A stretch of DNA of 15,506 nt from Clostridia bacterium. Lineage in GTDB: Bacteria > UBA6262 > WVXT01 > JAUXBS01. Both the position numbers and the translations under genes were made by a program. Location: positions 1 to 15,506 of the forward strand of contig JAUXDE010000030.1 of NCBI GenBank assembly GCA_030618495.1. Direction: 5' to 3'. Under the pieces are notes generated by a model that ran no database searches, was not told the origin of the DNA, and worked only from the letters and a program-made list of their open reading frames with translations. Numbering within the stretch: position 1 is the first letter of the stretch; every line of letters starts with the position of its first letter. Shown here piece after piece: positions 22 through 15,413 of this stretch.

Positions 22-75
22 ATGATTACTTTTTGTGAATGTATCAGGAGGATAAAATGTCTAATTACAGGATAG
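22..75 (+). other. Possible 17-codon leader ORF overlapping the first gene
   Basis: A GGAGG at 13-17 sits four bases ahead of ATG 22-24. The frame runs 17 codons to TAG 73-75. It covers the ribosome binding site (46-51) and start codon (57) of the next gene in another frame. The encoded peptide is unremarkable (begins MITFCEC). It could be a leader that tunes translation of the downstream gene, or a chance frame in a purine-rich leader. No homology is recognised and the assignment is weak. Confidence 0.2.
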
Positions 76-996: not shown

Positions 997-1003
997 AGGA
1001 GGT
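997..1003 (+). promoter_or_regulatory. Strong Shine-Dalgarno that fixes a CTG start for the FN3 giant
   Basis: AGGAGGT at 997-1003 is followed by eight bases and then CTG 1012-1014. In the reading frame of the FN3 protein there is a TAG at 1003-1005, so initiation must lie downstream of it. The codons from CTG onward encode a textbook signal peptide. The nearest conventional start, GTG 1114, has no Shine-Dalgarno sequence and would remove the signal peptide. Confidence 0.7.
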
Positions 1004-1011
1004 AGGGTACA

Positions 1012-4000
1012 CTGAACAGGCATTTTAAACGTCTAATTGCTGCCTTAGCGGGACTCGCGGTCCTGACTATAGGCACGCTTACGCCTGCATTCGGTGCTTC
1101 TACCGGCACGTGTGTGATGAGCCTTAATGTGAAACCGATTCATCATGTGCCGCCAAAGAAAGTTACTGACCTTACTGCAGAGACAGCTGATTATAATGTC
1201 AGGAAACCTCTTGAAGGCGAGATAGGCCTTACCTGGACAGCACCCGAGCCCAATACGAACAAGGTAGGGACTTATACAGATCCGTATATTAAGGGTTTTC
1301 TTATAAGGTGGAATACACTGAGCATAGATGGTCAGGGTGGCGATGTCACGACATGGTGGAATAATGCGGCCGGGGTTGACCGTGACGGGTCTGTGGGCGG
1401 AGAATTCAGCGCTCAATCCGGTGAACAAATGTCGTTCTCTGTGGATAGTGATACTTTACCACTGCCTATAAGGTTAAGCCCGAAAACAACGTATTACTTT
1501 GCTGTAAAGACAATAGATTTATTCGGAAATGAAAGTTACGTGGATGTGAAAGCGGATCCGCTTGGTGAAGACCAGGCGCACGCTGTCGCATCCTGCGATA
1601 ATATAGCTCCAAATGCAATTAATAACCTTGTCGCTGTTTCAACGGATACCGCGAATATTGTATTGTCATGGACGGCGCCCGGAGATGATGGTACGATAGG
1701 TAACAATACGATTAATTCAAATTACATAGTCAGGTATGCCACGTATGATTATAGTGCAATAGGTACAAATGCCTGGTGGAACAGCGCGGCTACCCAACAG
1801 CAGTTATTGGAAGTATCATTCCAGGGTATCACTCAGCAGTACGCCATAACAGGGCTTCAGAAGGGAACCACGTACTGGTACGCCGTCAAGACCGTGGATG
1901 ACAGGGGCAATGTATCTGATATTTCCAATATGGCGTTTTATAAAGTCTGGGGAGACATAATATCTCCTGAAGCCATAGCCGACCTGGTTGCTTACGGCAT
2001 ATATGATGCGGGCCTTGTTGAGCCGCAGATAAGGCTCAGCTGGACAGCGCCTCATGAGAATGAAGCGTCTGGCGGTAAGGTTATATCGTACGAGATAAGG
2101 TTTGCCACGTTCAGCAACCTCGGGATGGGGGCGACGACGTGGTGGAGTATTAACGCTTCATCTCCGATTGACTCGGCGTTAATGCCTGAACCGCTTGACC
2201 CGGGTGAAAAACAGGTCATAGTCATTAACAGCTGGATGGAGAATCCTGGTGGTATAAATGATTATTTCTATCCTGGTAAAACCAGCACTCCGGCTAAGAC
2301 CTACTGGTTTGCTATAAAGAGCACGGATATTGATGATTGTTCATCCGATGTTGACGTATCAACGCCGCAGGCGGGCGTCAGGCCGCAGATTGACGTTACG
2401 CCGCCTTACATGATTGAAGACCTTATGGCAGCGCAGGAGCCGGAAGACGGCAAGGTGGAACTTAGCTGGACGATGCCGGGCGATGACGGCAGCGCTTTGA
2501 ATAAATACTACGGGGGGAAGAACGATAACTGGAGGGGCGAGTATGATATAAGGTATTCCACGCTGGTCATAGTTTCAAGCGGCGCGGCGGTGGGAGAGGT
2601 TAACTTTGATGACGCGCCTGAGTGGGATTATAAGGTTGGGCAACTGTTGGAAGAAATAGGCGAACCGATGAAAACGACCATATCAGCACTCAAGAGCGAT
2701 ACTACCTACTGGTTTGCAATCAAGACGGCGGATGAAGTTTATTCTTTAAAACCCACTTCCGATAACCGCAACTGGTCCGAGATGTCCAACGTGGAGATTC
2801 AGGTTACTGCGGACTACACACCTCCGGTTCCGCCTACAGGGTTAACCGCCATGGCGGATATTGTAGGCAACGTGATTAACCTTGAATGGACGGCACCCGA
2901 TAAGGACGAAAACGGGAAGGATATCAGCCTTGGAAACGACCTTGCGAAGTTCAGGGTTTACAGGGCAACCGATTCCTTCTACGCCGTCCCGCAGGAGGCC
3001 TGGGCAGGCAGCGGGTACATACAGGCAATCACGACGCTGGCGGCGGATACCACGACCTACACCGATGCTACGGCTCTTGGCGGCACGACGTATTATTACA
3101 TCGTAACCGCAATCGATAATTCTGTTGTTAATGAGAACGAAAGCGGACCTTCAAATGAAGCCTGGGCTTCGCTTGAAGATTTCACGGCCCCCGTTCCTGT
3201 AACTGATTTGCTGGCTATGCCCGGGGAAAACAAGGAGGGTGTGATAGAACTCAGCTGGACATCGCCTTACGATACGGGAGCAGAGGGCAGGGCGGAGAAA
3301 TACTATGTAAGGTACGCAACGTTCAGTATAGCCAGCCTGGCAGGGGATTCAACGCTGTGGTGGAGCATGAGCGCAAGCGCTGATATAAGTGACGTGACTC
3401 CCGCAAAATCTTCGGGGACTATAGAAATCCTCGCTGTAACCGGTCTTACTCCCAACGTTACTTACTGGTTCGCCCTGAAGAGCGAGGATAGTTCCGGCAA
3501 TACGTCCTTTATAGACAGTACGACGCCGCAGGCAAGCGCCTCGGCAAGCGGCATGCCTCCGGGGCCTGTTAACGACCTTACTGCAAGAACCCCGACAGAA
3601 GCAGAACAGAGCATGAAGTATTCGCCCGTTGAAGGCAAAATTGTGCTTACCTGGTCCGCTCCCTATGATGACGATACGCCCACAGGCGGGGCAGTGAACG
3701 GGTACATTATAAAATATGCGGATATTTCAACTGAATCTGGATTTATAACTCCTGAAAACTGGTGGAATTTAGCGTCTTCAATTACCTTCAATGTCCCGGT
3801 GACTCCGAAACAGCCCGGTGAAACGGAAGAGATGGTGGTTCTGGGATTAAATGAAGGGATGACTCCCGGGACTACTTATTACTTTGCGATAAGGAGTATT
3901 GACGAGTATGGGAGTATGTCACCATTAGATTACTTTACAGTAAAAGCGAGTTCGGATAGCGATGGAGATATACAGGCGCACGCGTATCCACAGTACGACC

Positions 4001-5418
4001 AGACGCCGCCAACAATGATTTCTACACTGGAAGCCAAACCGTCAGGTGAGACCGCCACCACCGTCGTGTTGAGCTGGGATGCAACGGGTGATGACTACAT
4101 GGCGGGATTAAATGCGGGAGGATTGTATGAAATAGGTTATTCCACACATGTTCCTGTGAATAGTGAATCGGGTAAAATATACTGGTGGACCTGGCAAACA
4201 GAGAATATTCTTGTCAAGAGCGTTGAAAAAGGCGTGGGAGCGCAGGAGGTATTCTCCATAATCGATCTCAGGCCGGAATCCAAGTACTACTTCATAATAA
4301 GGGTAAGGGATGAAAGGTTCAACTGGTCCGGCTTGTCCAATATCGCCGAGGCAAGGACTTCCCTGTACAAGCCGCTTGACGTTACGGGTCTAAGGGCTTA
4401 CTTTGAGAATGAGGATAAGTTCGTGATAACCTGGAGCAAGGTTGATGAGAACACCGAGCGAAACGATATTAGTAATGTTGTTTATGAGGTTTACAGGACA
4501 AAGGATTACAGGCTGGGGAATGCCTGGACAGGGTCGCCAATCATTACCACTTCAGAAGAGAAGTTCACGGATACTAAGGGAGAGTTTGATAAGTACACCT
4601 ATTACTACAGGATAGTCGCTAAAGACGTTGGCGGTGAACAAGAAAGCGAGTTCTCCGCAATCATTGATACCGACATCAATCTCATATACCTTGTTGACGA
4701 GAGTAATAACTTTGCAAGAATCGTCGTTCCCGAGGAAATCAACAGCGCCCTGTACGGGGATGAGAATGAATATAAGTATGATATCAAGCTTAAGGCGGTG
4801 TACAAGAAAAACATGGTGGACGAAGATAAGGATGTGCAGACTGCCTATGAGTTCCAGGCGTACCCGTATTACTCCGAAAAGCCGGCGGATGAAGTTACCG
4901 GTTTCAACTTCACCAGGTCAAAGGCTGAAATTGTAATGCCGTATGAATCCGCCGGTGTTTCCGCCATGGTCGTAAGGGGTTCGCAGCTGGTTTCGGCGTA
5001 TTCAATATATTACTTCAACGGCAAGGAGGGTATCAAGATAGGCGGCGAGGTAAGCGAGCCTGAAAGCGAGATTTTAATAGAAGCCGGGAGGCTTGGAATA
5101 TTCATGGTGAAGGAAGACGAGCAGGAAACAACCGTGGGGTTAAAGAACGTATATCCCAAGACCTTCACTCCGAACGGGGACGGTTATAACGATAGGGTGA
5201 ACTTCGTATTCTCTAATCCTGATAACGATGCGATTTATGCAAGGATTTATGATTTGAAGGGCGCCGAGGTCAGGATAATCAGCGAGGGTGATTTCACCAA
5301 TGCGCTTTACTGGGACGGTATGGACGCCAACGGTTATGTCGCAAAGAGCGGTATTTACATATACCAGATTGAAATAGGGGAGGAAATGATTAACGGAACT
5401 GTGGTTCTGGCAAAGTAA
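1012..5418 (+). CDS. Giant secreted protein: nine FN3 domains plus C-terminal FlgD-Ig/CHU_C-like domain
   Basis: This is a 1468-residue protein if begun at CTG 1012. Residues 1-29 form a signal peptide: MNRHFKR, then a hydrophobic stretch, then TPAFGA with likely cleavage near 29. Nine fibronectin type III domains follow, beginning near residues 47, 199, 318, 464, 604, 726, 849, 999 and 1120. Each opens with a pattern like P-x-x-V-x-D-L-x-A followed by L-S-W-T-A-P, and most close with a YWFAIKT-like strand. At roughly 105-150 residues, most are longer than a typical FN3 domain, and six carry a paired-Trp insert. Residues 1224-1379 are an unassigned beta-rich segment. Residues 1380-1468 (VYPKTFTPNGDGYND ... 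SGIYIYQIEI ... NGTVVLAK) match the FlgD-Ig / gliding-motility C-terminal type, related in fold and role to T9SS sorting domains. It is likely a surface or extracellular adhesin. PorV-like barrels follow directly, which suits a cargo-and-shuttle relation (inference). No catalytic domain is visible. Confidence 0.9.
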   Translation: MNRHFKRLIAALAGLAVLTIGTLTPAFGASTGTCVMSLNVKPIHHVPPKKVTDLTAETADYNVRKPLEGEIGLTWTAPEPNTNKVGTYTDPYIKGFLIRWNTLSIDGQGGDVTTWWNNAAGVDRDGSVGGEFSAQSGEQMSFSVDSDTLPLPIRLSPKTTYYFAVKTIDLFGNESYVDVKADPLGEDQAHAVASCDNIAPNAINNLVAVSTDTANIVLSWTAPGDDGTIGNNTINSNYIVRYATYDYSAIGTNAWWNSAATQQQLLEVSFQGITQQYAITGLQKGTTYWYAVKTVDDRGNVSDISNMAFYKVWGDIISPEAIADLVAYGIYDAGLVEPQIRLSWTAPHENEASGGKVISYEIRFATFSNLGMGATTWWSINASSPIDSALMPEPLDPGEKQVIVINSWMENPGGINDYFYPGKTSTPAKTYWFAIKSTDIDDCSSDVDVSTPQAGVRPQIDVTPPYMIEDLMAAQEPEDGKVELSWTMPGDDGSALNKYYGGKNDNWRGEYDIRYSTLVIVSSGAAVGEVNFDDAPEWDYKVGQLLEEIGEPMKTTISALKSDTTYWFAIKTADEVYSLKPTSDNRNWSEMSNVEIQVTADYTPPVPPTGLTAMADIVGNVINLEWTAPDKDENGKDISLGNDLAKFRVYRATDSFYAVPQEAWAGSGYIQAITTLAADTTTYTDATALGGTTYYYIVTAIDNSVVNENESGPSNEAWASLEDFTAPVPVTDLLAMPGENKEGVIELSWTSPYDTGAEGRAEKYYVRYATFSIASLAGDSTLWWSMSASADISDVTPAKSSGTIEILAVTGLTPNVTYWFALKSEDSSGNTSFIDSTTPQASASASGMPPGPVNDLTARTPTEAEQSMKYSPVEGKIVLTWSAPYDDDTPTGGAVNGYIIKYADISTESGFITPENWWNLASSITFNVPVTPKQPGETEEMVVLGLNEGMTPGTTYYFAIRSIDEYGSMSPLDYFTVKASSDSDGDIQAHAYPQYDQTPPTMISTLEAKPSGETATTVVLSWDATGDDYMAGLNAGGLYEIGYSTHVPVNSESGKIYWWTWQTENILVKSVEKGVGAQEVFSIIDLRPESKYYFIIRVRDERFNWSGLSNIAEARTSLYKPLDVTGLRAYFENEDKFVITWSKVDENTERNDISNVVYEVYRTKDYRLGNAWTGSPIITTSEEKFTDTKGEFDKYTYYYRIVAKDVGGEQESEFSAIIDTDINLIYLVDESNNFARIVVPEEINSALYGDENEYKYDIKLKAVYKKNMVDEDKDVQTAYEFQAYPYYSEKPADEVTGFNFTRSKAEIVMPYESAGVSAMVVRGSQLVSAYSIYYFNGKEGIKIGGEVSEPESEILIEAGRLGIFMVKEDEQETTVGLKNVYPKTFTPNGDGYNDRVNFVFSNPDNDAIYARIYDLKGAEVRIISEGDFTNALYWDGMDANGYVAKSGIYIYQIEIGEEMINGTVVLAK

Positions 5419-5422
5419 ACTG

Positions 5423-5444
5423 CTTTGCAGGTTATCCTGCAAGG
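5423..5444 (+). other. Intergenic hairpin between FN3 giant and barrel A
   Basis: The stem 5423-5431 pairs with 5436-5444 around the loop TTAT. The core TTGCAGG/CCTGCAA is seven perfect pairs, extended outward by one G-U and one C-G. No T-run follows, so it is not a standard intrinsic terminator. The 3' arm overlaps AAGGT (5441-5445), the only Shine-Dalgarno-like match upstream of barrel A. It could be an RNA-processing or translation-modulating structure, or chance. Confidence 0.4.
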
Positions 5445-5473
5445 TAAAATGTTTGACGGGAATGAATGAGAAC

Positions 5474-6700
5474 ATGAAACAATTTGTCACAAAAATTATT
5501 ATTGCGCTTGCTATCACCGCCGGCTTGCTGGCGCCGGCAAGGGAGGCCTACGCCGATTTTGAGGATATAGGGGTAGGGGCCAGGCCCATAGCCATGGGGA
5601 ATGCCTTCGTGGGGCTTGCTGATGACGCAAACAGCATCTATTACAATCCCGCGGGGCTTGGCCTGCTTACAAGGAACGAGCTGACAGGCACTTACGGCAA
5701 GCTCTTCATGGGACTGACCGACGGCAGTGGTATTTCCAATGGTTTTATCGGCTACGTGCACCCGCTTAATAAGAAAATAGGCACGGTTGGCGTCGGGTGG
5801 CTTAACCTGAGCCTGACGGACAGTAATGCCTTTGTGGACGGCAAGGAGGCGGAGTCTATAACGAGGTATGCCGAGAACGCATTCATTGTTTCCTTCGGAA
5901 GGGATATTACGGATTTAGCAAGCACACCTTTGAAAAAGCTCTTCAAGGGGAAGGGAAAACTGCCCGGGAGCATGTCTGTGGGGCTTAATATGAAATTCAT
6001 GATGAAGTCATTCGGACTGGATGATTACTCCATGGAAGTGCCGGGTAAAGATGTATATGACCCTGTTTTCGGGGATGAGAATAATCTCAGGAGTGTGAAG
6101 GTGTTCACGAGCTACGATGCGGGATTGTTATACAAGCTTGATAATTTCCGTACTTCTTTCGGTCTTGCGGTAATAGATATTAACAGCCCTTACACGGCCC
6201 TGCAAACCAAGGATGAACAACATCCGGATGTCGAACCCGGAAAGGATTTAAGGAGACTGCCCGCGGGCTTGAGAGTCGGCGCTGCGTACAGGGAGCCGTT
6301 GATGAATATCGTTTTCGACATGAAACTCAAGGCGGGTGATGTTGACTTACACATGGGGATTGAAAGGTGGTTCCACGGCAGGGATATGGCGTTGAGGGCA
6401 GGGTATAATCACGGCAGCAGGGGACTCAACAACATTACGGTGGGGGCATGTTATAAATACGCTAATAAGTACCAGTTTGATTACGTGTTCCTCTATCCTC
6501 TTTCAGGATTTAAAAACATGTACGGTTCGCATAGAATGTCCTTTACTGTGAGGTTCGGCGAGATTACGGAGGAGAGGGAGATAAGGAGCCAGGCGGAGAA
6601 AATCACCAGGGGAATAAGGAAGGCAAAGAAAGTGAAGACGGAAAAGATGAAGAGGCTTGACCAGCTGAGAAACAAGTTCCTGCAGGGGGTCAGGAAATAG
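5474..6700 (+). CDS. PorV/PorQ-family (FadL-like) outer-membrane beta-barrel, paralogue A
   Basis: This is a 408-residue protein. ATG 5474 gives a clean signal peptide (MKQF, hydrophobic core, AYA|D cleavage after residue 27). In-frame TTG 5453 and ATG 5462 are alternatives, and ribosome binding sites are weak for all three. The mature protein opens with DFEDIGVGARPIAMGNAFV followed by LADDANSIYYNPAGLG, the N-terminal signature of the PorV/PorQ and UPF0164 barrels. Amphipathic strands follow up to about HRMSFTVRFGE. After the last strand comes a very basic helical tail of about 45 residues (ITEERE to GVRK), unusual for a protein whose last strand normally ends it. In Bacteroidota, PorV receives T9SS cargo through its C-terminal domain. 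Here the gene lies between a CTD-bearing giant and a TPR gene that starts 17 nt later. A transport or shuttle role is inferred; a porin role for hydrophobic solutes is the alternative. Confidence 0.85.
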   Translation: MKQFVTKIIIALAITAGLLAPAREAYADFEDIGVGARPIAMGNAFVGLADDANSIYYNPAGLGLLTRNELTGTYGKLFMGLTDGSGISNGFIGYVHPLNKKIGTVGVGWLNLSLTDSNAFVDGKEAESITRYAENAFIVSFGRDITDLASTPLKKLFKGKGKLPGSMSVGLNMKFMMKSFGLDDYSMEVPGKDVYDPVFGDENNLRSVKVFTSYDAGLLYKLDNFRTSFGLAVIDINSPYTALQTKDEQHPDVEPGKDLRRLPAGLRVGAAYREPLMNIVFDMKLKAGDVDLHMGIERWFHGRDMALRAGYNHGSRGLNNITVGACYKYANKYQFDYVFLYPLSGFKNMYGSHRMSFTVRFGEITEEREIRSQAEKITRGIRKAKKVKTEKMKRLDQLRNKFLQGVRK

Positions 6701-6717
6701 TAATGGGGAGAAAAAAC

Positions 6718-7932
6718 ATGATAAATAAAATATTTGTCCCGGTATTAATTGCGGGCGCATTTCTGCTTTTTATTAATCCTGAGGCAAGCGGGGAAAAGAA
6801 TGCCAAGACGTTCAAAATCTTCTTAAACGAGGCAAAGACAAAATATGCGGCGGGTAATTTGATAGGCGCCGTTAGCGCGGGAGAAAAAGCAATGGAGTCC
6901 GATCCCGAAAACAGGAAGGGCAGGAAATTCCTTTTAAGGGCGCTGGTTGAACTTGGGACGGAGTGCGCCCGTAACGAGGATTGGCAGAATGCCCTTCTAT
7001 ACCTTGATAAGGCAAGAAAGCTTGTACCCAAGGACAGGGACGTCAATGAAATGTATTCGTTGGTGAGGGATATGAGGAATTCATCGTACAGCATGTATGA
7101 AACAGAGACAGGCATGCCGGGCCTGGAGCAGATATGCCAGGGCGGCAATTACAGGGCTGCGTATGAGAAAATGAGAAAATTGGGAGCGGAAAAGTCCAAG
7201 GACATAGAAGTGCGCGACCTTTACAAGAAACTTAAGATGGTGTCAATGACGATACCGGAAATAAAGGGGGCGGATGAGAAGTCGGAATTCCTGAAAAAAG
7301 CCATAGGTTATTACTTGTCTGAAGAGCCTAAGGGCGCCATAAATATGCTGCAGTATTACACCGAAAAAAATCCTGACGACAGGGAGTCATCCTCTATTAT
7401 GAGGTCAGTGAAGGCGGAGTACCCTGATGTGGCAAAGGAGGAATCGGTAGCCGATGGTATGACTTTCGTGGAAAGCAAATTATTCAGGGCGCTGAACTAT
7501 ATTTATGAAAACAAGCATGACCTTGCCGTTAACGAATGCAACGCGGTTCTTGACATTGAGCCGGACAACCTGACAGCGCTGCTGCGGCTGGGTTCCGCCT
7601 ATTACGTCCTCGGGATGAAGGAAAGGGCGAAGGAGGCGTATACAAGGGCGAGGGAAATAGACTCGACAATTGATGAGGGGTTGGGTGATTGGGAGGTGGA
7701 AAAAGGGATAACCATAGAAGTTGAAGAGAAGGTATCAAAGTACGAAAGCGAGGACCAGAAGAATTTTGAGCAATCAATAAAGTATTACCAGGACAATGAA
7801 AAAAAGAATGATTTAAGATGGCGTGTTATAACGCTCAGGAGAATCGTTGATAAATACAAGTCAAAAGGAGTGGATGTTTCAAAAATACAGTCAATACTTG
7901 AAATTTTAAGAGAAACAAAAATAAAAAGATAG
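6718..7932 (+). CDS. Secreted TPR protein, likely periplasmic partner of the barrels
   Basis: This is a 404-residue protein. ATG 6703 is in frame, but GGGGAG (6705-6710) lies seven bases before ATG 6718, which gives a signal peptide (MINKIF, hydrophobic core, cleavage near EASG). The mature part is helical with TPR-like units near residues 30-110 (YAAGNLIGAVSAGEKAMESDP; DWQNALLYLDKARKLVP) and 255-315 (HDLAVNECNAVLDIEPDN; GSAYYVLGMKERAKEAYTRA). A C-terminal helical segment (KYYQDNEKKNDLRW to SILEILRE) follows. From about residue 160 onward it is collinear with the C-terminal half of the fusion protein at 9689-11794, sharing KLFRALNY, LAVNEC and YVLG. That gene fuses a barrel to this domain, so a physical contact between this protein and barrel A or B is a good inference. 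No enzymatic motif is visible. Confidence 0.85.
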   Translation: MINKIFVPVLIAGAFLLFINPEASGEKNAKTFKIFLNEAKTKYAAGNLIGAVSAGEKAMESDPENRKGRKFLLRALVELGTECARNEDWQNALLYLDKARKLVPKDRDVNEMYSLVRDMRNSSYSMYETETGMPGLEQICQGGNYRAAYEKMRKLGAEKSKDIEVRDLYKKLKMVSMTIPEIKGADEKSEFLKKAIGYYLSEEPKGAINMLQYYTEKNPDDRESSSIMRSVKAEYPDVAKEESVADGMTFVESKLFRALNYIYENKHDLAVNECNAVLDIEPDNLTALLRLGSAYYVLGMKERAKEAYTRAREIDSTIDEGLGDWEVEKGITIEVEEKVSKYESEDQKNFEQSIKYYQDNEKKNDLRWRVITLRRIVDKYKSKGVDVSKIQSILEILRETKIKR

Positions 7933-7982
7933 GGCCGGGAAGAAAAGGAAAAAAATAAAGGCCTTGAGGAATGGCGGGGATT

Positions 7983-9194
7983 ATGGTAAAATATGCCCTA
8001 AAAATTATTATTCTTGTTGTTTTCATGAATTTTCCGGGACCCGCAGTCGAGGTGTTTGCTGATTTTGAGGATGTGGGAGCGGGAGCGAGGCCGGTTGCCA
8101 TGGGAAACGCCTTTGCGGGGCTCGCGGACGATGCAAACAGCATATACTACAATCCCGCGGGGCTCGGCCTGCTTAATAACAGGGAGATAACCGGGGGGGA
8201 AAGCTGGTTGTACCTGGGACTGACTGACGGGAGCCGGTTATTCAACGGTTTTATCGGTTACGTCCATCCTGTAAACAGCGAAGTGGGAACTTTCGGCGTG
8301 GGCTGGCTCAACAGGAGCCTCATGGACAACAGCGCATTGATAGGAGGGGTGGAAGAATCCCTCACGAGGTATGCTGAAAACATTTTTATCCTTTCCTACG
8401 GCAGGGACATGTCGGATTTAGCAGACAGTTCACTGGAGGGGATTTTAAAAATAGAGGGCGGCATACCCGGAAGGTTATCCGTAGGAATGAACGTGAAGTT
8501 CATGACGAAGTCCTTTGGTATGGATGATTATACAATGGATGCGCTGACGGCTTCCGGTCCGTCCGGTATACCCGATCCCGTTTTCGGGGAAGAGGGGAAC
8601 GGGAACGCAAAGATATTCGCAAGTTTTGACATGGGGCTTTTTTACGGGATGGATAATTACCGTACTTCGTTCGGCCTGGTTTGTACGAATATAAATAATC
8701 CTTATACGGCGCTGGATGAGGACGGCGGTTCCGGAATGGATTTGCGCAGGCTCTCACCCGGCTTGAGGGTTGGGGCCGCCTACAGGGAACCCCTGATGAA
8801 CATTGTTCTTGACCTGAAACTGGCAGGGGGAGACGTTGACCTTCATGCGGGGCTCGAGAGGTGGTTCCACGGCAGGGATATGGCATTGAGGGCGGGAATC
8901 AGCCACGGCAGCAGGTCGCTTAACAATGTTTCGGCGGGAGCGTGTTACAGGTATTCCGGCAGGTACCAGATGGATTACGTGTTCGTTTACCCTCTTTCCG
9001 GGTTAAAGAAGTTCTACGGTTCGCACAGGATTTCCTTCACGATGAAGTTCAGCGAACTGACGGAGGAGAGGAAAATCAGGCGGCAGGCGGAGGATATTAC
9101 CAGGGGGATAAGGAAGACAAGGAAGGAAAAGACGGATAAGATAAAAAAACTTGATTACCTGCGGAATAAGTTTCTGCAGAAGGTTGAGAAATAA
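7983..9194 (+). CDS. PorV/PorQ-family (FadL-like) outer-membrane beta-barrel, paralogue B
   Basis: This is a 403-residue protein. ATG 7983 gives a 26-residue signal peptide ending VFA|D. ATG 7971 is also in frame and would add four residues; GAGGA at 7966-7970 and GGGGA at 7976-7980 make the choice uncertain. The mature start DFEDVGAGARPVAMGNAF and the LADDANSIYYNPAGLG block are nearly the same as in barrel A. The two genes align throughout, with a 26-nt identical block at 6365-6390 and 8859-8884 (encoding RWFHGRDMA). The basic C-terminal tail (LTEERK to KVEK, about 45 residues) is also kept. The main differences lie in putative loops, for example residues around 185-205. It is followed 21 nt later by the minimal CTD protein, so a barrel again sits beside a CTD-bearing protein. 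It looks like a local duplicate that may serve a second cargo (inference). Confidence 0.85.
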   Translation: MVKYALKIIILVVFMNFPGPAVEVFADFEDVGAGARPVAMGNAFAGLADDANSIYYNPAGLGLLNNREITGGESWLYLGLTDGSRLFNGFIGYVHPVNSEVGTFGVGWLNRSLMDNSALIGGVEESLTRYAENIFILSYGRDMSDLADSSLEGILKIEGGIPGRLSVGMNVKFMTKSFGMDDYTMDALTASGPSGIPDPVFGEEGNGNAKIFASFDMGLFYGMDNYRTSFGLVCTNINNPYTALDEDGGSGMDLRRLSPGLRVGAAYREPLMNIVLDLKLAGGDVDLHAGLERWFHGRDMALRAGISHGSRSLNNVSAGACYRYSGRYQMDYVFVYPLSGLKKFYGSHRISFTMKFSELTEERKIRRQAEDITRGIRKTRKEKTDKIKKLDYLRNKFLQKVEK

Positions 9195-9215
9195 GGCTGT
9201 GAAAGGGGAAATAAA

Positions 9216-9602
9216 ATGAGAAAAGGATACAAAAAATATATTTTCAGGATAATACTGGCTGTAGGATTTGTGGTTATTGCCGGCAGTTACAAGGCGGGCC
9301 GTTCGGATGCGTGGAAGGTTTACCCGCGCATTTTTACTCCCGCAGGCGCTCAAAACAATGTTGTGAAATTCAGTTTTCCCGACCCGGACCCCGGCGGCCC
9401 CGGAGTGGAAAAAGTCGGCCGTGTTTATGATATACAGGGGCACAGGGTGATTAACCTTGCTCTTGATTCCGAAGGTGGAAATTTTACTGCGACGTGGGAC
9501 GGCAATGACGCCGATTCCAATCCTGTAAGAAGCGGTATTTACATATATCACGTAACGGTATCAACCAAAGTTTACAACGGCACGGTAGTTCTTGCAAGGT
9601 AG
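9216..9602 (+). CDS. Minimal secreted protein consisting of a stand-alone FlgD-Ig-like C-terminal domain
   Basis: This is a 128-residue protein. AAAGGGGA at 9202-9209 lies six bases before ATG 9216, a good ribosome binding site. Residues 1 to about 32 are a signal peptide (MRKGYKK, hydrophobic IILAVGFVVIAG, possible cleavage after GRSDA). Everything after that is one domain: KVYPRIFTPAG, RVYDIQGHRV, ATWDGNDADSNPV, SGIYIYHV and YNGTVVLAR. It aligns end to end with the last 89 residues of the FN3 giant, and 17 nt are identical at 5347-5363 and 9531-9547. No passenger domain remains. It could be a decoy, plug or regulator of the PorV-like barrels, a small surface subunit, or the remnant of a larger cargo gene. 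It sits between barrel B and the barrel-TPR fusion. Confidence 0.85.
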   Translation: MRKGYKKYIFRIILAVGFVVIAGSYKAGRSDAWKVYPRIFTPAGAQNNVVKFSFPDPDPGGPGVEKVGRVYDIQGHRVINLALDSEGGNFTATWDGNDADSNPVRSGIYIYHVTVSTKVYNGTVVLAR

Positions 9603-9631
9603 AAAGTTTTTATATGAAACAAAATTGTATT

Positions 9632-9675
9632 ACCCCCTCACCCTACCCTCTCCCACGGGGGAGAGGGAGAAGAGG
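9632..9675. repeat. GC-rich palindromic repeat just upstream of the barrel-TPR fusion gene
   Basis: CCCTCTCCC at 9646-9654 and GGGAGAGGG at 9659-9667 form a perfect nine-base-pair stem with loop ACGG. It is preceded by a pyrimidine-rich arm (CCCCCTCACCCTA) and followed by AGAAGAGG. The C-rich then G-rich layout contrasts sharply with the AT-rich flanks. From memory it resembles a short palindromic repeat scattered in many bacterial genomes, often mistranslated as peptides such as TPSPYPLPRGRG. It occupies about half of the largest intergenic gap in the operon. Its right end supplies the only AGAGG ahead of ATG 9689. Confidence 0.7.
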
Positions 9676-9688
9676 ATTTGATTTTAAT

Positions 9689-11794
9689 ATGAAAAGAACT
9701 ATATCCGGTTTAACTCTTTTTTGCGTTATGGTTACCTGCGGTTTGTGTTTTGCAGAGTTTGAGGACATAGGAGCGGGCGCGCGTCCCATCGGGATGGGGT
9801 CTGCCTTTGTGGCTCTTGCGGATGATGCGCACAGCGTATACTACAACCCGGCCGGGATTGCCGGTATCGGCCGGAAGACATTTACTGCCGGGTACAACAA
9901 GCTTTACTGGGGCTTATCGGACGGAAGCGATCTCGGCAGTGGATTTGCGGGATACGTACAGCCCCTGGGTGATAAGGGCAGTTTGGGGGCGGGCGTACTC
10001 AGCCTGGGTTTGAGCCAGCCGGCAACCGAAGGCGGGAGTTATTCCGGTTCGCTTTATTCCGAGACAACGATAATAATTTCCTATGCCAGAAACGTGGGAG
10101 AGATACTCCCGGCAGTATTAACGAGAGAGGATTTGTCCGGTATGTACGTGGGGTTAAGTATTAAGTTTCTAAGCAAGGTGTACGGCAGCGATTATATTGA
10201 TAATAGCGGTGAATTTACCGGTACGAATTCAATTTTTGGCAGTGGAGGGTACGGGAAGTCGGGATTGGCTGCCGATATCGGTATGCTTTACCGGTATAAT
10301 TACAATTTCTCGGCGGGACTGGTGTTGACGGACCTGATAGCTCCGGACATGGGAATAGAAACGGGGAACCCGATGTCCATGGGATTGAAGGTAGGAGGCC
10401 TTTATAAGGCGCCGTATTTTAACGTCGTGCTTGACCTGGTTGTTAAGAATGGTAATTTTGATGCCCGGGTGGGTATGGAGAAATGGTTTATGGATGGCAG
10501 GTACGCTCTGCGCGCCGGCTTAAGCGGTTATGTGTCGGTTGGCGCGAGTTACAGGTTCAGGGAAAACATGGTTGTTGAATATTCCTATAACAACCCGATA
10601 ACGGGTATAAATAATACCGCGGGTTCGCATGTTGTTTCCTTGAATATGAGTTTTGGGGAGATGACCGGCAGAATGAAGAGCGTTGAGGATGAGGAGGAAA
10701 AACAAATTGATGCGGCAAAACTGTTAAGGCAAACGATGATTGATGAAGAAAAAGCGCGCGCGGGAATGTCACTTAAATACTATAAGGAAGCGCTCAAACT
10801 CACCGATAAGGGTGACTTCATTGAAGCCCAGCAGAAGATTAATTCGGCATTGACGCTGAATACCGAAAACGCCGATATACAGGCATTGTTCAAGAAGTTG
10901 AATACCGTGGCGATGATACTGCCCGTTTCCACGGGTGATGACAGGATGTCCGGGCTGATAAGGAAGGGGGTTAGATTCTACATCGATGATGAGTCAAAAC
11001 AACTGGTGAATGTATTTCAGTACCTGGTTGAAAAATACCCCAAGGACAGAAGGATTCATGATTTCATGAGGATTGTCAAGAGACAGTTTCCTTCAGTGGT
11101 AAGGCAGGAAAAGATAAGCGCCGGCATGAATTTTATAGACCAGAAGCTCTTCCGCGCGCTTAATTATCTCTACAACGGCAAGTATAACCTTGCGGTTAAC
11201 GAGTGCAAGGCTGTCCTTGACGTTGAGCCCGGCAATGTAACTGCGCTGACGAGGATGGGGTCTGCGTGTTATGTCCTCGGCCAGGAGGCAAAAGCCCTCC
11301 GGTTGTGGACGGAAGCGCTGAAAATAAATCCCGACAACGATGAGTTAAGAGGTTTTATAGAAGAGAAGGGCATTAACCTGGAGCAGATTAGAAAAAAAGA
11401 AGCGGTTAATGAAAAGAAAGAAAAAGATTTTAGAAATTCAATGAATTACTATTATAAGAAAGAAAAGACCCTGGGCAAAGAAGCCAGGCAGAAGCTGCTT
11501 CAGAGAATCATAAATAAGTATAAGCAGTCGGGGGTAGACATTTCCGTGGCGGAGTCGGAGTTGAAGAAGGTTAAAAAGGAAAAAACGGGGAAGAAGGAGA
11601 AGAAACCAAAAAAGAAGGCGCTTACTGAAGCAGAGAAAACAGCTCTTAAGAAGAAATACTATGGAGCGGGAATCGCTTACAAGCAGAAAGGGCAATACGG
11701 AAAAGCCATTGCCGAGTTTAAAAAACTGCTGGAAATTGACCCCGGTCACCCGCAGTCAAAAAGACAGGTAAAGGATTGCAGGGAGAAGTTATAG
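9689..11794 (+). CDS. Fusion of a PorV-like outer-membrane barrel with a TPR domain, paralogue C
   Basis: This is a 701-residue protein. The frame is open back to ATG 9614, but the first 25 codons translate the palindromic repeat. ATG 9689 gives a signal peptide (MKRTISG, hydrophobic core, CFA|E after residue 22), and AGAGG at 9671-9675 is a distant ribosome binding site. Residues 23 to about 320 form a barrel starting EFEDIGAGARPIGMGSAFV and LADDAHSVYYNPAGI. A charged helical linker (about 321-365) leads into TPR-like repeats (about 365-560) collinear with the TPR protein at 6718-7932: KLFRALNY, LAVNECKAVLDVEP and YVLGQEAKAL. A lysine-rich stretch (about 620-655) precedes a last TPR (KGQYGKAIAEFKKLLEIDPG). 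The gene thus joins in one chain what genes 5474-6700 and 6718-7932 make as two. It probably couples an outer-membrane barrel to a periplasmic scaffold or chaperone. Confidence 0.85.
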   Translation: MKRTISGLTLFCVMVTCGLCFAEFEDIGAGARPIGMGSAFVALADDAHSVYYNPAGIAGIGRKTFTAGYNKLYWGLSDGSDLGSGFAGYVQPLGDKGSLGAGVLSLGLSQPATEGGSYSGSLYSETTIIISYARNVGEILPAVLTREDLSGMYVGLSIKFLSKVYGSDYIDNSGEFTGTNSIFGSGGYGKSGLAADIGMLYRYNYNFSAGLVLTDLIAPDMGIETGNPMSMGLKVGGLYKAPYFNVVLDLVVKNGNFDARVGMEKWFMDGRYALRAGLSGYVSVGASYRFRENMVVEYSYNNPITGINNTAGSHVVSLNMSFGEMTGRMKSVEDEEEKQIDAAKLLRQTMIDEEKARAGMSLKYYKEALKLTDKGDFIEAQQKINSALTLNTENADIQALFKKLNTVAMILPVSTGDDRMSGLIRKGVRFYIDDESKQLVNVFQYLVEKYPKDRRIHDFMRIVKRQFPSVVRQEKISAGMNFIDQKLFRALNYLYNGKYNLAVNECKAVLDVEPGNVTALTRMGSACYVLGQEAKALRLWTEALKINPDNDELRGFIEEKGINLEQIRKKEAVNEKKEKDFRNSMNYYYKKEKTLGKEARQKLLQRIINKYKQSGVDISVAESELKKVKKEKTGKKEKKPKKKALTEAEKTALKKKYYGAGIAYKQKGQYGKAIAEFKKLLEIDPGHPQSKRQVKDCREKL

Positions 11795-11799
11795 GTATC

Positions 11800-13674
11800 A
11801 TGAATAAACGAAATACAAAATATATTATTTTCAATGTTCTGCTCGGAGCGGCAGTATGGCTTAACAGCTTGAAGGGCGGATTCCATTACGATGATTTTCA
11901 CGTATTAAAAAAAACGAGGGTATTGTTTGATATATTGAATTTCCGTTTTGTGGGCTGGCTGACGCTGTTTATCAATTCGCTCCCCGGGGAATCGAATACT
12001 GTTTTTTATCACCTGACGAATTTGTTCATACACGTCTGCGCGGGTATCTGCATATATTTCATAGTCCTTTTTATAATAAAAAAGGATAAATCGTATGTTC
12101 CTTTTTTTGTTTCAGCCCTTTTCATGGTTCACCCGCTTGCAACCGAACCGGTTAACTATATTTCCGCGCGTTTTACGCAGCTTGCGGCGCTTTTTTGTTT
12201 TTCAACCCTGCTGTTCTTTATCCTGTACACGCAAAGAAGGAAAACAGTGTATCTTGCGCTGACAGTCATATCCTTCCTGTTGGGGATGTATTCCAAGGGA
12301 GTGGGGATATATTACGTAACCGTCGCTATACTCGTATATAGTTTTTGTTTCCTGGACTGGAAGGGATTGTTTGCAAACAAAAGGAATGCTGTGGTCATTG
12401 GCGGTGTTATGTTCCTGTTGTTTTTCTTAATGCTCTCCTTTGCGGCGCAAAGGCTCAAAAGCCCGTTTTTCTGGCAGCACTTCATGGTCCAGAATAAAGT
12501 TTTCCTGTTGAAGTATTTTAGGCTGATGGCGCTTCCCGTTGGGCTGAACGTGGACCATTGGATAATGCCGCCGAAACACTTTCTGTTTGATTTTAGGATA
12601 CTGTTAAGCCTGGCCCTCAACGTTACCGTTGTCGCCGGCGCGGTATTAATGAAGAAAAGGAATAAACTCCTATCGTTTGCCGTCTTATGGATTTATCTCA
12701 TGAGTTTCCCTTATTTCCTGCTTACGACAAAGGAACTGGTTGTGGAATACAGGACGTATCCGGCTCTTTTCGGTTTTGTTCTCATGCTCGGTTATTTCCT
12801 GGGGGAATTCGTTAACGGAAGGAAACGCCAGAGGATTATTTTTTCGATAGTACTGCTTTTTTTTAGTATTATTACCGTGACAAGGAACAGGGTATGGAGC
12901 GATGATTTATTGTTATGGCGGGACGCCGCGGAAAAATCCCCCCAATCGGCCAGGGCCTACTGCAACCTTGGAATCGGCTACAAGAATAAGGGGTTTTATG
13001 ACCGCGCCATAGAGGCGTTCAACAGGTCGCTGGAACTGAAGTTCCAGTACCCGTACGCCGTATACATGAACCGCGGCGTAGTGTATGCCGAAAAGGGGTT
13101 TTATGCCCGGGCAATAGATGATTTCAACAGGGCGCTTGAATTGTATCCAAATAATTGTGGACTGTATCTTAACAGGGGCAGGGCTTATGCAATGAAGGGG
13201 CTTTTTGCGGAGTCAATAGCGGATTTTACAAGGACCGTGGAACTGGAACCCGGTAACGCCAGGGCATTTTTTTACAGGGGCAGGGTTTATGACGAAAAAG
13301 GATTATACGGTAAATCAATGGATGACCTGAACAGGGCAATTGAGTTAGACCCGAAACTTATAAATGCCTGGTTTGTCCGGGGGAACGTTCACCTGGAAAA
13401 AGGGTTGAGCGATAAGGCAGTCAGTGATTATGAAACGGCCATCAGGTTAAACCCGGAGTTCATGAACGCGTATAACAACCTCGGAAGCGCGTATGCGGCA
13501 AAGGGGTTATATGATAAGGCTATCCGGAGTTACAGCATTGCCATAGAGAAGTTTCCGGATTATTCTGCCGGGTACAGGAACAGGGCGGCGGTTTATCGCA
13601 GGCTGGGGGAGCAGGAACTGGCTTTTAAAGACGAGATTAAACTGAAGGAACTATCCGGGAAACCGGATAAATAG
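11800..13674 (+). CDS. TMTC/GT-C-like polytopic membrane protein with seven C-terminal TPRs, divergent motifs
   Basis: This is a 624-residue protein. ATG 11800, five bases after the previous stop, is preferred over TTG 11776, which overlaps that gene and would add eight residues. The first ~380 residues are strongly hydrophobic with about ten membrane segments. The luminal/periplasmic HYDD (29-32) after the first segment, HPLATEPVNYI (111-121) and EYR-x-Y later match the layout of TMTC-type GT-C glycosyltransferases. Residues from about 385 to the end hold seven 34-residue TPRs of the N-x-G-x-x-Y / A-I-x-D-F-x-x-A-I-E-L-x-P type. In contrast to the next gene, several conserved charged positions are replaced: RFVGW for YRPL (49-53), ARFTQ for QRSE (123-127) and SKG for SKE (165-167). 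It may use another acceptor, act as a non-catalytic partner, or have lost activity. The expected substrate class is polyprenyl-phosphate sugar (family knowledge). Confidence 0.8.
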   Translation: MNKRNTKYIIFNVLLGAAVWLNSLKGGFHYDDFHVLKKTRVLFDILNFRFVGWLTLFINSLPGESNTVFYHLTNLFIHVCAGICIYFIVLFIIKKDKSYVPFFVSALFMVHPLATEPVNYISARFTQLAALFCFSTLLFFILYTQRRKTVYLALTVISFLLGMYSKGVGIYYVTVAILVYSFCFLDWKGLFANKRNAVVIGGVMFLLFFLMLSFAAQRLKSPFFWQHFMVQNKVFLLKYFRLMALPVGLNVDHWIMPPKHFLFDFRILLSLALNVTVVAGAVLMKKRNKLLSFAVLWIYLMSFPYFLLTTKELVVEYRTYPALFGFVLMLGYFLGEFVNGRKRQRIIFSIVLLFFSIITVTRNRVWSDDLLLWRDAAEKSPQSARAYCNLGIGYKNKGFYDRAIEAFNRSLELKFQYPYAVYMNRGVVYAEKGFYARAIDDFNRALELYPNNCGLYLNRGRAYAMKGLFAESIADFTRTVELEPGNARAFFYRGRVYDEKGLYGKSMDDLNRAIELDPKLINAWFVRGNVHLEKGLSDKAVSDYETAIRLNPEFMNAYNNLGSAYAAKGLYDKAIRSYSIAIEKFPDYSAGYRNRAAVYRRLGEQELAFKDEIKLKELSGKPDK

Positions 13675-13682
13675 GCGCTGAA

Positions 13683-15413
13683 ATGGAAAAAACCTTTAAT
13701 AACACAACCTTTAATGTAAAGTGGCGGCATATGGCCCTGATTGCCGTAACGTGTCTTGCCCTGTATTCAAATACCCTTAAAAATGAATTCGTGTACGATG
13801 ATGTTGCGGTTATCGTCCAGAATAATCTCGTAAAAAACATTGCGCGCATTCCAACGTATTTCACCAAGCCCGTAATAAGCACCGCGTATGGGTTTGAAAA
13901 AGGGTACAGGCCGCTCGTAATGGCTTCTTTTAATATGAATTACGCGCTGGGTGGATTGAATGTTATCGGATATCATGCTGTGAACATCTTTTTCCATACA
14001 GCCAATGCCCTGCTGGCATATATATTAATTATCACAATCCTCGGGATTACAAAGAGCAACAATAAATACCTGGTTGCCTTATTTGCGTCATTGCTCTTTG
14101 CGGCGCATCCCATGAATACGGAAGCGGTCAATTATGTCTGGCAGCGCTCCGAACTCATGGCAGGGTTTTTCTACCTGCTTGCTGTCATATTATTCCTGAA
14201 GCGTATCCTGTTAAAAAAGCCCGGGTTGTTTCTGTTATCCATGATATCCTTTATCCTGGCGCTGTTGAGCAAGGAGATTGCGGTTACTATCCCGTTAATC
14301 ATGATAATACTGGACTGGTACCTGTTATCTGATTTTAAAAAAGAAAAGTTCTTTGGCAATATCAGAAGGTATCATTTATGGTCATTGGCTATCCTGGTCA
14401 TATACACGCTTTTCAGGCTGTTTAACCAGGGGGTCGTGGATGAATTGGTTTCTTCCTCCAAGGTCACTCCCTATAGTTACCTGTTGACCCAGTTTAGCGC
14501 GGTAGTAAAATATCTAAAGTTGTTAATCCTTCCCTGCGGGCTTTCTGTAAATCATGAGTTGCTGGCGGCGGAAAGTTTTCTCAATATCAATGTATTATTG
14601 TCCCTGGGGATATTAACAGCAATAATATTAATAAGCGTTGTTTTAAGAAAGAAATTAAGATTAGTTTCGCTTTTCATGGCCTGGTTTTTCATTATACTGA
14701 TACCAACCTCAAGTATCCTGCCGCTTAAAATCCTGATGAACGAGCACAGGGTATATTTATCCGGTATCGGGCTGTTTGTGATACTGGCGATATCGGCGCT
14801 TAAGAATGTAAACAAAAAAAGACAGGTAAACATTTTAACGATGGTTTTTATCATGATAATAACCGTACTGGCTCTTACCTCGTATAACAGGAATGCCGAC
14901 TGGAAGAACGGCGTGACTTTATGGTCGGACGCTTTAAGGGTAAACCCGGATTCCGTGGTTTCGTTGAACAACCGCGGAAAGTCCTATTATCTGTTGGGTT
15001 TTTATGATAAGGCAATAGATGATTTCAGCAGGGTAATAGAATTGAAGCCGGATTATGCGCTCACCTATAATAACCGCGGCGCCGCTTACCTGAGCAAGGG
15101 ATTGACTGACAGGGCAATAGCTGATTTCAGTATGTCCATTAAAGGAAACCCCGGGGATATAGGTTCATACGTGAATCTCGCCATAATATACCAGAATAAG
15201 GGAATGTACGCTGAAGCGTTATCGGTAATAAATAAAGCCCGTGATATAGACGATAAAGTGCCCGCTCTTTATAATGTCCTGGGTATAACATACGCGCGCA
15301 TGGGAAAGTATGAAGAGGCGGTAAAAGAGTTCAGTAAAGGATTAAGTCTTAACCCTGGAGATACGGAAATAAAAAGAAATTTGACAAAGATTCAACAGTT
15401 ATTGGCTGAGTAA
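13683..15413 (+). CDS. TMTC-like GT-C glycosyltransferase with four C-terminal TPRs
   Basis: This is a 576-residue protein starting eight bases after the previous gene with a weak ribosome binding site. The N-terminal ~400 residues are polytopic. Visible family motifs, in order, are VYDD (37-40; the Asp pair expected at the GT-C active site), YRPL (75-78), YHAVN-x-x-x-H (97-105), HPMNTEAVNYV (142-152) with QRSE (154-157), SKEIAVTIP (196-204) and EHRVYL. Four TPRs of 34 residues follow to the C-terminus. Animal TMTC1-4 share this layout and transfer mannose from dolichyl-phosphate mannose to cadherin beta-strands. Many bacterial homologues are uncharacterised. Here it is probably an inner-membrane, periplasm-facing protein glycosyltransferase. 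The secreted FN3 and barrel proteins of the same operon are candidate acceptors (inference). It is the last gene of the run. Confidence 0.85.
   Translation: MEKTFNNTTFNVKWRHMALIAVTCLALYSNTLKNEFVYDDVAVIVQNNLVKNIARIPTYFTKPVISTAYGFEKGYRPLVMASFNMNYALGGLNVIGYHAVNIFFHTANALLAYILIITILGITKSNNKYLVALFASLLFAAHPMNTEAVNYVWQRSELMAGFFYLLAVILFLKRILLKKPGLFLLSMISFILALLSKEIAVTIPLIMIILDWYLLSDFKKEKFFGNIRRYHLWSLAILVIYTLFRLFNQGVVDELVSSSKVTPYSYLLTQFSAVVKYLKLLILPCGLSVNHELLAAESFLNINVLLSLGILTAIILISVVLRKKLRLVSLFMAWFFIILIPTSSILPLKILMNEHRVYLSGIGLFVILAISALKNVNKKRQVNILTMVFIMIITVLALTSYNRNADWKNGVTLWSDALRVNPDSVVSLNNRGKSYYLLGFYDKAIDDFSRVIELKPDYALTYNNRGAAYLSKGLTDRAIADFSMSIKGNPGDIGSYVNLAIIYQNKGMYAEALSVINKARDIDDKVPALYNVLGITYARMGKYEEAVKEFSKGLSLNPGDTEIKRNLTKIQQLLAE

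Follow-up and report, generated by a model that had tools for sequence, protein, structure and literature searches.

An operon that appears to encode a variant of the type IX secretion system in a lineage apparently outside the Bacteroidota and their nearest kin

The window, the whole 15,506-nucleotide stretch of DNA analysed here, raises the question of whether PorV-type barrels and proteins ending in an Ig-like C-terminal domain (CTD), encoded together in one operon, form a dedicated module for export and attachment, as the initial annotation had proposed. Our preferred answer, to which we assign a probability of roughly two in three, is that the operon encodes two cargo/carrier pairs that use a T9SS-type route without PorU, each cargo having its own PorV-family carrier.

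Gene content of the operon

The nine genes of the window are all open and form a single run on the plus strand (Table 1). Those that had been described beforehand are present in the order given, although the first gene of the run had been omitted. The product of this additional gene shows a weak, sub-threshold similarity to the WxL-interacting protein PG-binding domain, and its homologues adjoin mini-CTD and barrel genes in four sister-family genomes. The gene for the giant protein starts with CTG, an in-frame stop lying at 1003-1005, and a Sec-type signal peptide is read from this start. The longest ORF of barrel C begins at 9614, its first 25 codons running through the GC-rich stretch, and from the sequence its real start is likely at 9689; the ORF of membrane enzyme candidate 1 opens at 11776. 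No structured RNA or tRNA was found in the window, in which terminator-like sites were no more frequent than expected by chance.

Table 1. Coordinates of the genes and sequence elements in the window
Feature	Position	Strand	Basis or remark
Ig-like secreted protein, two domains	39..989	+	22 nt upstream of giant gene
AGGAGG ribosome-binding site for CTG start at 1012	997..1002	+	sequence
Giant cargo protein (1468 aa) with signal peptide, ~9 fn3-type repeats and C-terminal CTD	1012..5418	+	
CTD of giant protein, type B-like, TPNGDGYND motif	5140..5415	+	TIGR04131 match
Barrel A, PorV-family, 14 strands, long C-terminal helix	5453..6700	+	presumed carrier of giant protein
Secreted TPR protein, homologous to TPR domain of barrel C	6703..7932	+	
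Barrel B, 64% identity to barrel A	7971..9194	+	
Mini-CTD protein, 128 aa: signal peptide and CTD, without passenger domain	9216..9602	+	
GC-rich stretch separating the mini-CTD and barrel C genes, palindrome arms of 9 bp, CCCTCTCCC...GGGAGAGGG	9633..9671	.	sequence
Barrel C, PorV-family barrel with fused TPR domain	9689..11794	+	presumed carrier of mini-CTD protein
Membrane enzyme candidate 1, GT-C/TMTC-like, YDD motif, 7 TM by hydropathy, C-terminal TPRs	11800..13674	+	
Membrane enzyme candidate 2, GT-C/TMTC-like, YDD motif, 10 TM by hydropathy, C-terminal TPRs	13683..15413	+	

Protein glycosylation had been counted as a part of the module on account of the last two genes, whose TMTC label is based on the YDD motif, the 7-10 predicted TM segments and the C-terminal TPRs. 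The membrane halves of both enzymes gave no Pfam family match at E ≤ 1, and a PDB search with enzyme 1 recovered, among the matches listed, its TPR part only. Similar enzyme genes number 19 in the same genome and none to one in the sister-family genomes that keep CTD-barrel modules, so that the data do not support this function as specific to the module; on the count of 19 copies, the TMTC-like enzymes were rejected as one of its components.

Pairing of CTD and barrel genes and the T9SS machinery of the genome

When the genome was checked, through searches and in selected stretches, for further proteins with the same C-terminal domain, 17 terminal CTD genes were identified, and a barrel gene lies directly 3′ of ten of them (hypergeometric p ~1e-17). 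Across this genome and its relatives the CTD gene is upstream of the barrel in 27 cases and downstream in 2, and in named genomes of many phyla it lies directly upstream of 50 out of 85 barrels and downstream of 8, many of the CTD-barrel gene pairs overlapping by 4 nt. Within the window, barrel B has no CTD gene directly upstream. Furthermore, the distances among CTDs correlate with those among their partner barrels (Mantel r 0.48, p 0.003; 10 pairs, from this genome only), a correlation that could alternatively be caused by co-duplication of linked genes. The gene order was also conserved when relatives were inspected. Together, the genome-wide order, the correlated distances, the PorV and T9SS-CTD folds and the order kept in relatives give good support to the proposal of a dedicated export and attachment module that combines CTD cargo with a PorV-type carrier.

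The CTD of the giant protein scored 31.4-34.8 bits against TIGR04131 (type B; cut-off 35), and that of the mini-CTD protein 22.1-22.6 bits against TIGR04183 (type A; cut-off 23). With the latter model the two CTDs of the window, at 22.2 and 22.6, fall narrowly below the cut-off, which was passed by 12 of the 15 CTDs from this genome that were tested. In the structural model of the mini-CTD (pLDDT 85.7), the nearest folds are T9SS CTDs, the best being those of PorU (Z 10.2) and PorZ (9.3), while comparison with the PorV-bound NucA CTD gave Z 8.2. Two apparent barrel-CTD fusions (L054 and L096) carry a FlgD-like Ig domain after the barrel and were dropped as evidence because the CTD end motif is absent and a periplasmic location is expected.

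A full-length SprA/Sov homologue is encoded elsewhere in the genome, as a 1759-aa ORF (C106). It scored 172.6 bits (E 7.8e-51) against TIGR04189, below the cut-off of 200, and 28.5 against Pfam SprA_N, above the gathering score of 27; comparison of its profile with strong SprAs gave 100% probability over 1521 columns. Profile methods were needed for this assignment, a single-sequence phmmer search against the PDB having given no match at E ≤ 1. In 60 independently sampled genomes, SprA and barrels were both present in 17, neither in 36 and one only in 7 (Fisher 1e-8). A PorU-type C25 peptidase (PF01364) was not found in the genome (98% complete), where matches to the PorU model covered CTD parts only; the same PF01364 search detected C25 in 19 of 49 genomes. 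Searches for GldL and GldM (PorL/PorM) gave no match here, but that for GldM detected no positive control either and that for GldL was silent even where SprA and C25 are clearly encoded, so that the missing matches are uninformative. Since SprA is encoded and most of the tested CTDs exceed the curated type A cut-off, the system is of T9SS type. The initial placement of the locus outside the classic T9SS thus agrees with the missing PorU/C25 match but not with the SprA gene and the CTD scores.

The same data bear on whether the carriers are shared, as in a standard T9SS in which cargo would be exported via SprA and served by any PorV-family barrel, an unrecognised sortase would release or attach it, and the neighbouring barrel would not be cargo-specific. 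Most CTDs of the genome are type A by NCBIfam, a class with one general PorV in Bacteroidota (PMC12618676), and seven of the 17 CTD genes have no adjacent barrel, six of these seven belonging to one clade (98/96), as if one carrier served them. However, the consistent CTD-then-barrel order and the correlated distances argue against sharing, as does the finding of C25 in 15 of 15 genomes with a strong SprA versus 3 of 28 with a divergent SprA, and we consider this account unlikely.

Identity of the barrels and the proposed route

All three barrels scored below the cut-off of 90 for the NCBIfam model PorV_fam (79.5 bits for A, 48.5 for B and 54 for C), which is exceeded by 10 barrels genome-wide, the window's own not being among them. 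Scores with PorP_fam (TIGR03519; cut-off 90.55) were weaker, at 36.1 and 30.6 bits, the former being that of barrel A, and Pfam alone assigned no family to barrel A. The nearest named barrels are from Elusimicrobiota, at 31-40% identity. The model of barrel A (pLDDT 87.9) has 14 strands, and its best fold matches are two PorV structures, 8gl6_F (Z 31.7) and 6h3i_F (Z 31.1).

By fold alone PorV and FadL (Z 30.3) are close together, and barrels of the Bacteroidota BAM complex also match the barrel A model (Z ~26-27). BamG belongs to the FadL-family barrels (PMC12611786), and Ig-like/FlgD-type domains are common, which would suit an alternative in which the barrels would be channels of the FadL type or assembly subunits like BamG, the CTD proteins would be Ig-tipped proteins of an ordinary kind that use another route, and the neighbourhood would reflect an envelope function only. 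The profile comparison nevertheless places the window barrel sequence nearer to PorV (E 1.4e-28) than to FadL (E 1e-3), a preference of ~25 orders of magnitude, and neither the co-occurrence with SprA nor the upstream polarity of the CTD genes would be expected from such proteins, so that we judge this alternative quite improbable. The display proposal was to fall if the barrels proved to be fatty-acid channels and the gene order was not conserved; what we found was a conserved order and a clear profile preference for PorV, with folds that are close. A signalling role, in which the mini-CTD protein and its barrel would be a surface sensor for two-component regulators, like P. gingivalis PorA, instead of a display device, would fit the mini-CTD-barrel-Ig trios that adjoin response regulators in sister genomes, the CTD/barrel-TPR/histidine-kinase runs in this genome (C95) and in Elusimicrobia loci, and PorA's binding of PorV and its action upstream of PorXY (PMC7712824), but the window contains no kinase or regulator gene and a giant fn3 cargo is unlike a signal, which leaves this role very improbable.

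Barrel C had been described as a PorV-type barrel, which it is, but not as a barrel alone, since a TPR domain is fused to it; this domain matches the free TPR protein at 41% over 252 aa. No OmpA-type peptidoglycan-binding domain was recognisable in the free protein. The C-tails of barrels A and B contain no cysteine and hence no Cys-X-Cys motif, and barrel C has a single cysteine, Cys722, close to its C-terminal end.

For the two cargo/carrier pairs we infer the following route. Both cargo proteins, the giant with its fn3 repeats and the mini-CTD protein, would cross the inner membrane via Sec, as suggested by the signal peptides seen in their sequences, after which the SprA homologue would serve as the passage of their Ig-like CTDs across the outer membrane. 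The exiting CTDs may be gripped by their own barrels, A (of which B is a near-duplicate) for the giant protein and C for the mini-CTD protein. Because no PorU-type sortase was found that could cleave the cargo and attach it anew, this cargo most likely stays in the grip of its barrel, which would anchor it at the surface in the way that SprF anchors SprB. The TPR moiety, a separate protein next to A and B and a fused domain in C, would be periplasmic and probably tethers the carrier to the cell wall or connects it with an energy source.

Distribution and comparison with known systems

T9SS genes have been stated to be absent outside the FCB phyla (PMC11285876), and the system to be exclusive to Bacteroidota (PMC12618676). 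For Elusimicrobiota, our literature search returned no paper on such a system, incidental mentions aside. Nevertheless, SprA, CTDs and PorV-family carriers occur together in genomes that bear the labels Elusimicrobiota, Goldbacteria, Firestonebacteria and Aerophobetes, among others. We tentatively suggest, at somewhat less than even odds, that the type IX pathway has a second lineage beyond the Bacteroidota superphylum, comprising Elusimicrobiota, Goldbacteria, Firestonebacteria, Aerophobetes, FCPU426 and the lineage of the window. Its SprA would be divergent and PorU absent, and its PorV-family carriers, each specific to one cargo, would be kept at the surface as anchors, in many cases bearing a periplasmic arm of fused TPRs. 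If this is true, PorP/SprF are not alone in pairing a carrier with its cognate cargo, and display is possible without a sortase. The split between genomes with strong SprA and C25 and those with divergent SprA would make the origin of the T9SS and its need for a sortase testable by comparative genomics, and a CTD gene directly before a barrel gene would provide a simple rule for finding surface proteins in poorly known phyla.

The system shares with the Bacteroidota T9SS a SprA homologue, PorV-family barrels, Ig-like CTDs (most of those in the genome lying over the type A cut-off) and Sec signal peptides. It differs in that no C25/PorU sortase was found, SprA is divergent, the PorV-family barrels are many, more than half of their genes lying immediately 3′ of a single CTD cargo gene, and the host lineage is apparently outside the FCB group. 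Type B cargo of Bacteroidota have dedicated carriers that are encoded directly downstream and required for cargo secretion (PMC12618676), and such carriers remain bound as an anchor (PMC12635249, PMC9143113). The pairs SprB-SprF and Fjoh_3952-3951 (PMC12618676, PMC12635249) resemble the present ones in having the barrel gene directly 3′ of the cargo gene, a large adhesin-like cargo, a TPR-bearing operon partner (PorE homologues in those systems) and orphan CTDs that are obliged to share a carrier. In contrast to them, the barrels here are PorV-family and not PorP/SprF by curated models, and most CTDs of the genome are type A-like; where SprF has a Cys-X-Cys C-tail (disulfide to GldK), barrels A and B have a long helix and C a TPR domain.

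The PorP-PorE-PG1035 complex (PMC9143113) likewise combines a CTD protein, a barrel and a periplasmic partner, and is PorU-independent, as would fit a genome in which no PorU was found, whereas the TPR protein here differs in lacking a recognisable OmpA-type domain and the TPRs of C are fused to the barrel. Finally, the mini-CTD protein is comparable to the small CTD proteins PorA of P. gingivalis, which binds PorV, and Fjoh_0547, which at 112 aa is near it in size (PMC7712824); unlike these, it consists of a CTD without a passenger domain and is located in a cargo/carrier operon.

Gene order and predicted folds

The window covers the whole of its contig (C40, 15,506 bases) in a 1.69-Mb genome (179 contigs, 98% complete), and its + strand carries nine genes with almost no gaps. 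The initial annotation had described these genes as a single run, which agrees with the layout found here, but it had left out g1, a two-domain Ig-like secreted protein. Because a g1-like protein belongs to a conserved trio in the sister family, we regard g1 as a member of the module.

Genes of the window
Feature	Position	Strand	Evidence
g1	39-989	+	ORF
giant	1012-5418	+	ORF, CTG start
barrel A	5453-6700	+	ORF
free TPR protein	6703-7932	+	ORF
barrel B	7971-9194	+	ORF
mini-CTD	9216-9602	+	ORF
barrel C with fused TPR	9689 (likely start)-11794	+	ORF
membrane/TPR enzyme 1	11800-13674	+	ORF
membrane/TPR enzyme 2	13683-15413	+	ORF

The giant, a cargo protein with about nine fn3-type repeats and a C-terminal Ig-like sorting-type domain (CTD), has no ATG at its 5′ end; a CTG that lies ten bases past an AGGAGG and right behind an in-frame stop gives the protein a clear signal peptide. 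The later start of barrel C was preferred because its longest ORF runs through a GC-rich palindrome. This stretch between the mini-CTD and barrel C genes (9633-9671; TPSPYPLPRGRG) looks, from its sequence, like a small repeat element.

Barrels A, B and C are nearest to PorV/PorQ in NCBIfam (79.5, 48.5 and 54 bits, all under the curated cut-off of 90). In a PDB search, a profile of 51 related barrels scored PorV at E 1.4e-28, against no better than 1e-3 for FadL. The AlphaFold model of barrel A (pLDDT 87.9) has 14 strands and a C-terminal helix of 43 residues, and its best fold matches were PorV from SprA complexes (8gl6_F, Z 31.7; 6h3i_F, Z 31.1); since FadL follows closely at Z 30.3, the fold alone does not decide between PorV and FadL. 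The predicted structure of mini-CTD, a signal peptide plus a single Ig-like domain (pLDDT 85.7, most of the domain >90), best matched the CTDs of PorU (Z 10.2), PorZ (9.3) and PorV-bound NucA (8.2); unrelated Ig folds also give Z of 8-9. The free TPR protein shares homology with two barrel-fused TPR domains, that of barrel C (41% over 252 aa) and one on contig C51 (32% over 277 aa), and the occurrence of the same barrel and TPR parts both split and fused argues that they act together.

Pairing and conservation of CTD and barrel genes

The search proposed in the initial annotation for other CTD-ending proteins returned 17 genes with a terminal CTD in the same genome (CTD profile), alongside 18-19 barrel genes (PorV model). 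A barrel gene directly follows 10 of the 17 on the same strand (p about 1e-17 given about 1,600 genes). Counted by barrel in this genome and its relatives, a CTD gene lies upstream of 27 and downstream of 2; in 80 loci of named genomes, gathered by barrel similarity, it lies directly upstream of 50 of 85 barrels and downstream of 8, the downstream count serving as an internal control. Among the ten pairs of this one genome, CTD distances correlate with barrel distances (r 0.48, p 0.003), which co-duplication of linked genes could explain even if the proteins do not bind. Of the seven unpaired CTDs, one is a fragment and the other six group in a single supported clade (98/96); five of these six are the best matches in the genome to the PorU-type CTD. 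The clade resembles the orphan CTDs of F. johnsoniae, three of which have one carrier in common (PMC12618676).

Other arrangements were also seen. Distant PorV-like barrels on C170 and C152 (L155, L156) follow small lipoprotein-like genes, not CTD genes, which suggests another partner type, and natural fusions join a PorV-like barrel to a C-terminal FlgD-like Ig domain (L054 8843-10081; L096 10115-11224). On contig C95 (L147 6792-11616; compare L200, L205, L070 and L052), a CTD protein, a barrel-TPR protein and a histidine kinase form one run, kept in sister-family genomes and Elusimicrobia loci with the kinase 38-45% identical; it is possibly a surface-to-kinase signalling operon. A barrel-TPR and kinase run on C178 (L151 3150-9746) lies close to a protein whose CTD-like domains are internal.

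The module is real and conserved. In the sole congener, contig C287 keeps, with DNA identity of about 75%, barrel A (partial), the TPR protein, barrel B, mini-CTD, barrel C-TPR and enzyme 1, and 4/4 sister-family genomes hold a conserved trio made up of a mini-CTD (149-173 aa), a barrel (about 400 aa) and a g1-like protein, adjoined by response regulators wherever the contig extends to show them. The congener bin, 76% complete, also contains a contig (L255, G001:C76:1-3186) 99.2-99.9% identical to window 10464-13473, either contamination or a second copy; the conservation claims use C287 alone.

GT-C/TMTC-like membrane-TPR enzymes, placed in the module as glycosyltransferases by the initial annotation, occur at 11800-15413 and in many other places in the genome. 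Enzyme-1 relatives number 19 here, 19 in the congener and 0-1 per sister-family genome, which marks the enzymes as a genus-level expansion and not as part of the module.

SprA, sortase and motor

The genome search for SprA found a homologue on contig C106, an ORF of 1,759 aa that matched TIGR04189 in three collinear stretches at 172.6 bits, under the cut-off of 200, and that clears the Pfam SprA_N gathering score. When 15 proteins of this type were aligned and compared with an alignment of six strong SprAs, the match spanned 1,521 columns at 100% probability, and PorV-like barrels, the negative control, gave no match. Of 54 genomes, most of them reached via barrel loci, 50 carried SprA. Among 60 relatives sampled by kinship, independently of barrels, barrel A relatives and SprA occurred together in 17, barrels only in 4, SprA only in 3 and neither in 36 (p 1e-8; 5e-7 without order-mates). 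The export module earlier proposed is well supported by the genome-wide CTD-then-barrel order; its placement outside the classic T9SS is upheld only in part, since a SprA homologue is present. The gene directly upstream of this homologue (L144 200-1735) encodes a membrane glycosyltransferase of the PMT_2 family (Pfam E 1e-30).

In the same genome, the PorU model matched only CTD parts and the C25 family gave no match; the C25 search works, since it finds the family in 19 of 49 genomes. Among genomes reached through named loci, C25 was present in 15/15 with SprA at >=200 bits versus 3/28 with weaker SprA. The weak-SprA group, named as in public records, consists largely of Elusimicrobia and also includes Goldbacteria, Firestonebacteria, Aerophobetes, FCPU426 and a Spirochaetia MAG, and the lineage of the window fits within it. 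Searches for the motor proteins GldM and GldL gave nothing above chance in any genome, even those where SprA and C25 are clear, and the positive controls did not match either.

Comparison with T9SS cargo/carrier pairs

In F. johnsoniae, PorV loops bind the substrate CTD inside SprA and the CTD exits with its carrier (PMC10994853). For the window module, we infer that the cargo CTD would be bound by a PorV-family barrel and routed via SprA, the barrel then serving as anchor; because no sortase is recognisable, cargo remaining on its carrier would be the simplest anchoring. A long C-terminal helix or TPR domain may tether the carrier to the wall, by analogy with the role proposed for PorE (PMC9143113). 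The wider point of interest is a possible PorU-less SprA system beyond FCB.

The module is best classed as a variant of the cargo/carrier pairs of the T9SS and not as something outside it. Each type B cargo protein has a carrier of its own, whose gene commonly lies immediately downstream (PMC12618676), and stays attached to it as its anchor (PMC12635249). Unlike SprF, barrels A and B have no Cys-X-Cys tail, and the carrier role here, unlike that of type B carriers, would be filled by a PorV-family barrel; gene order, partner folds and SprA are like the type B cargo/carrier logic.
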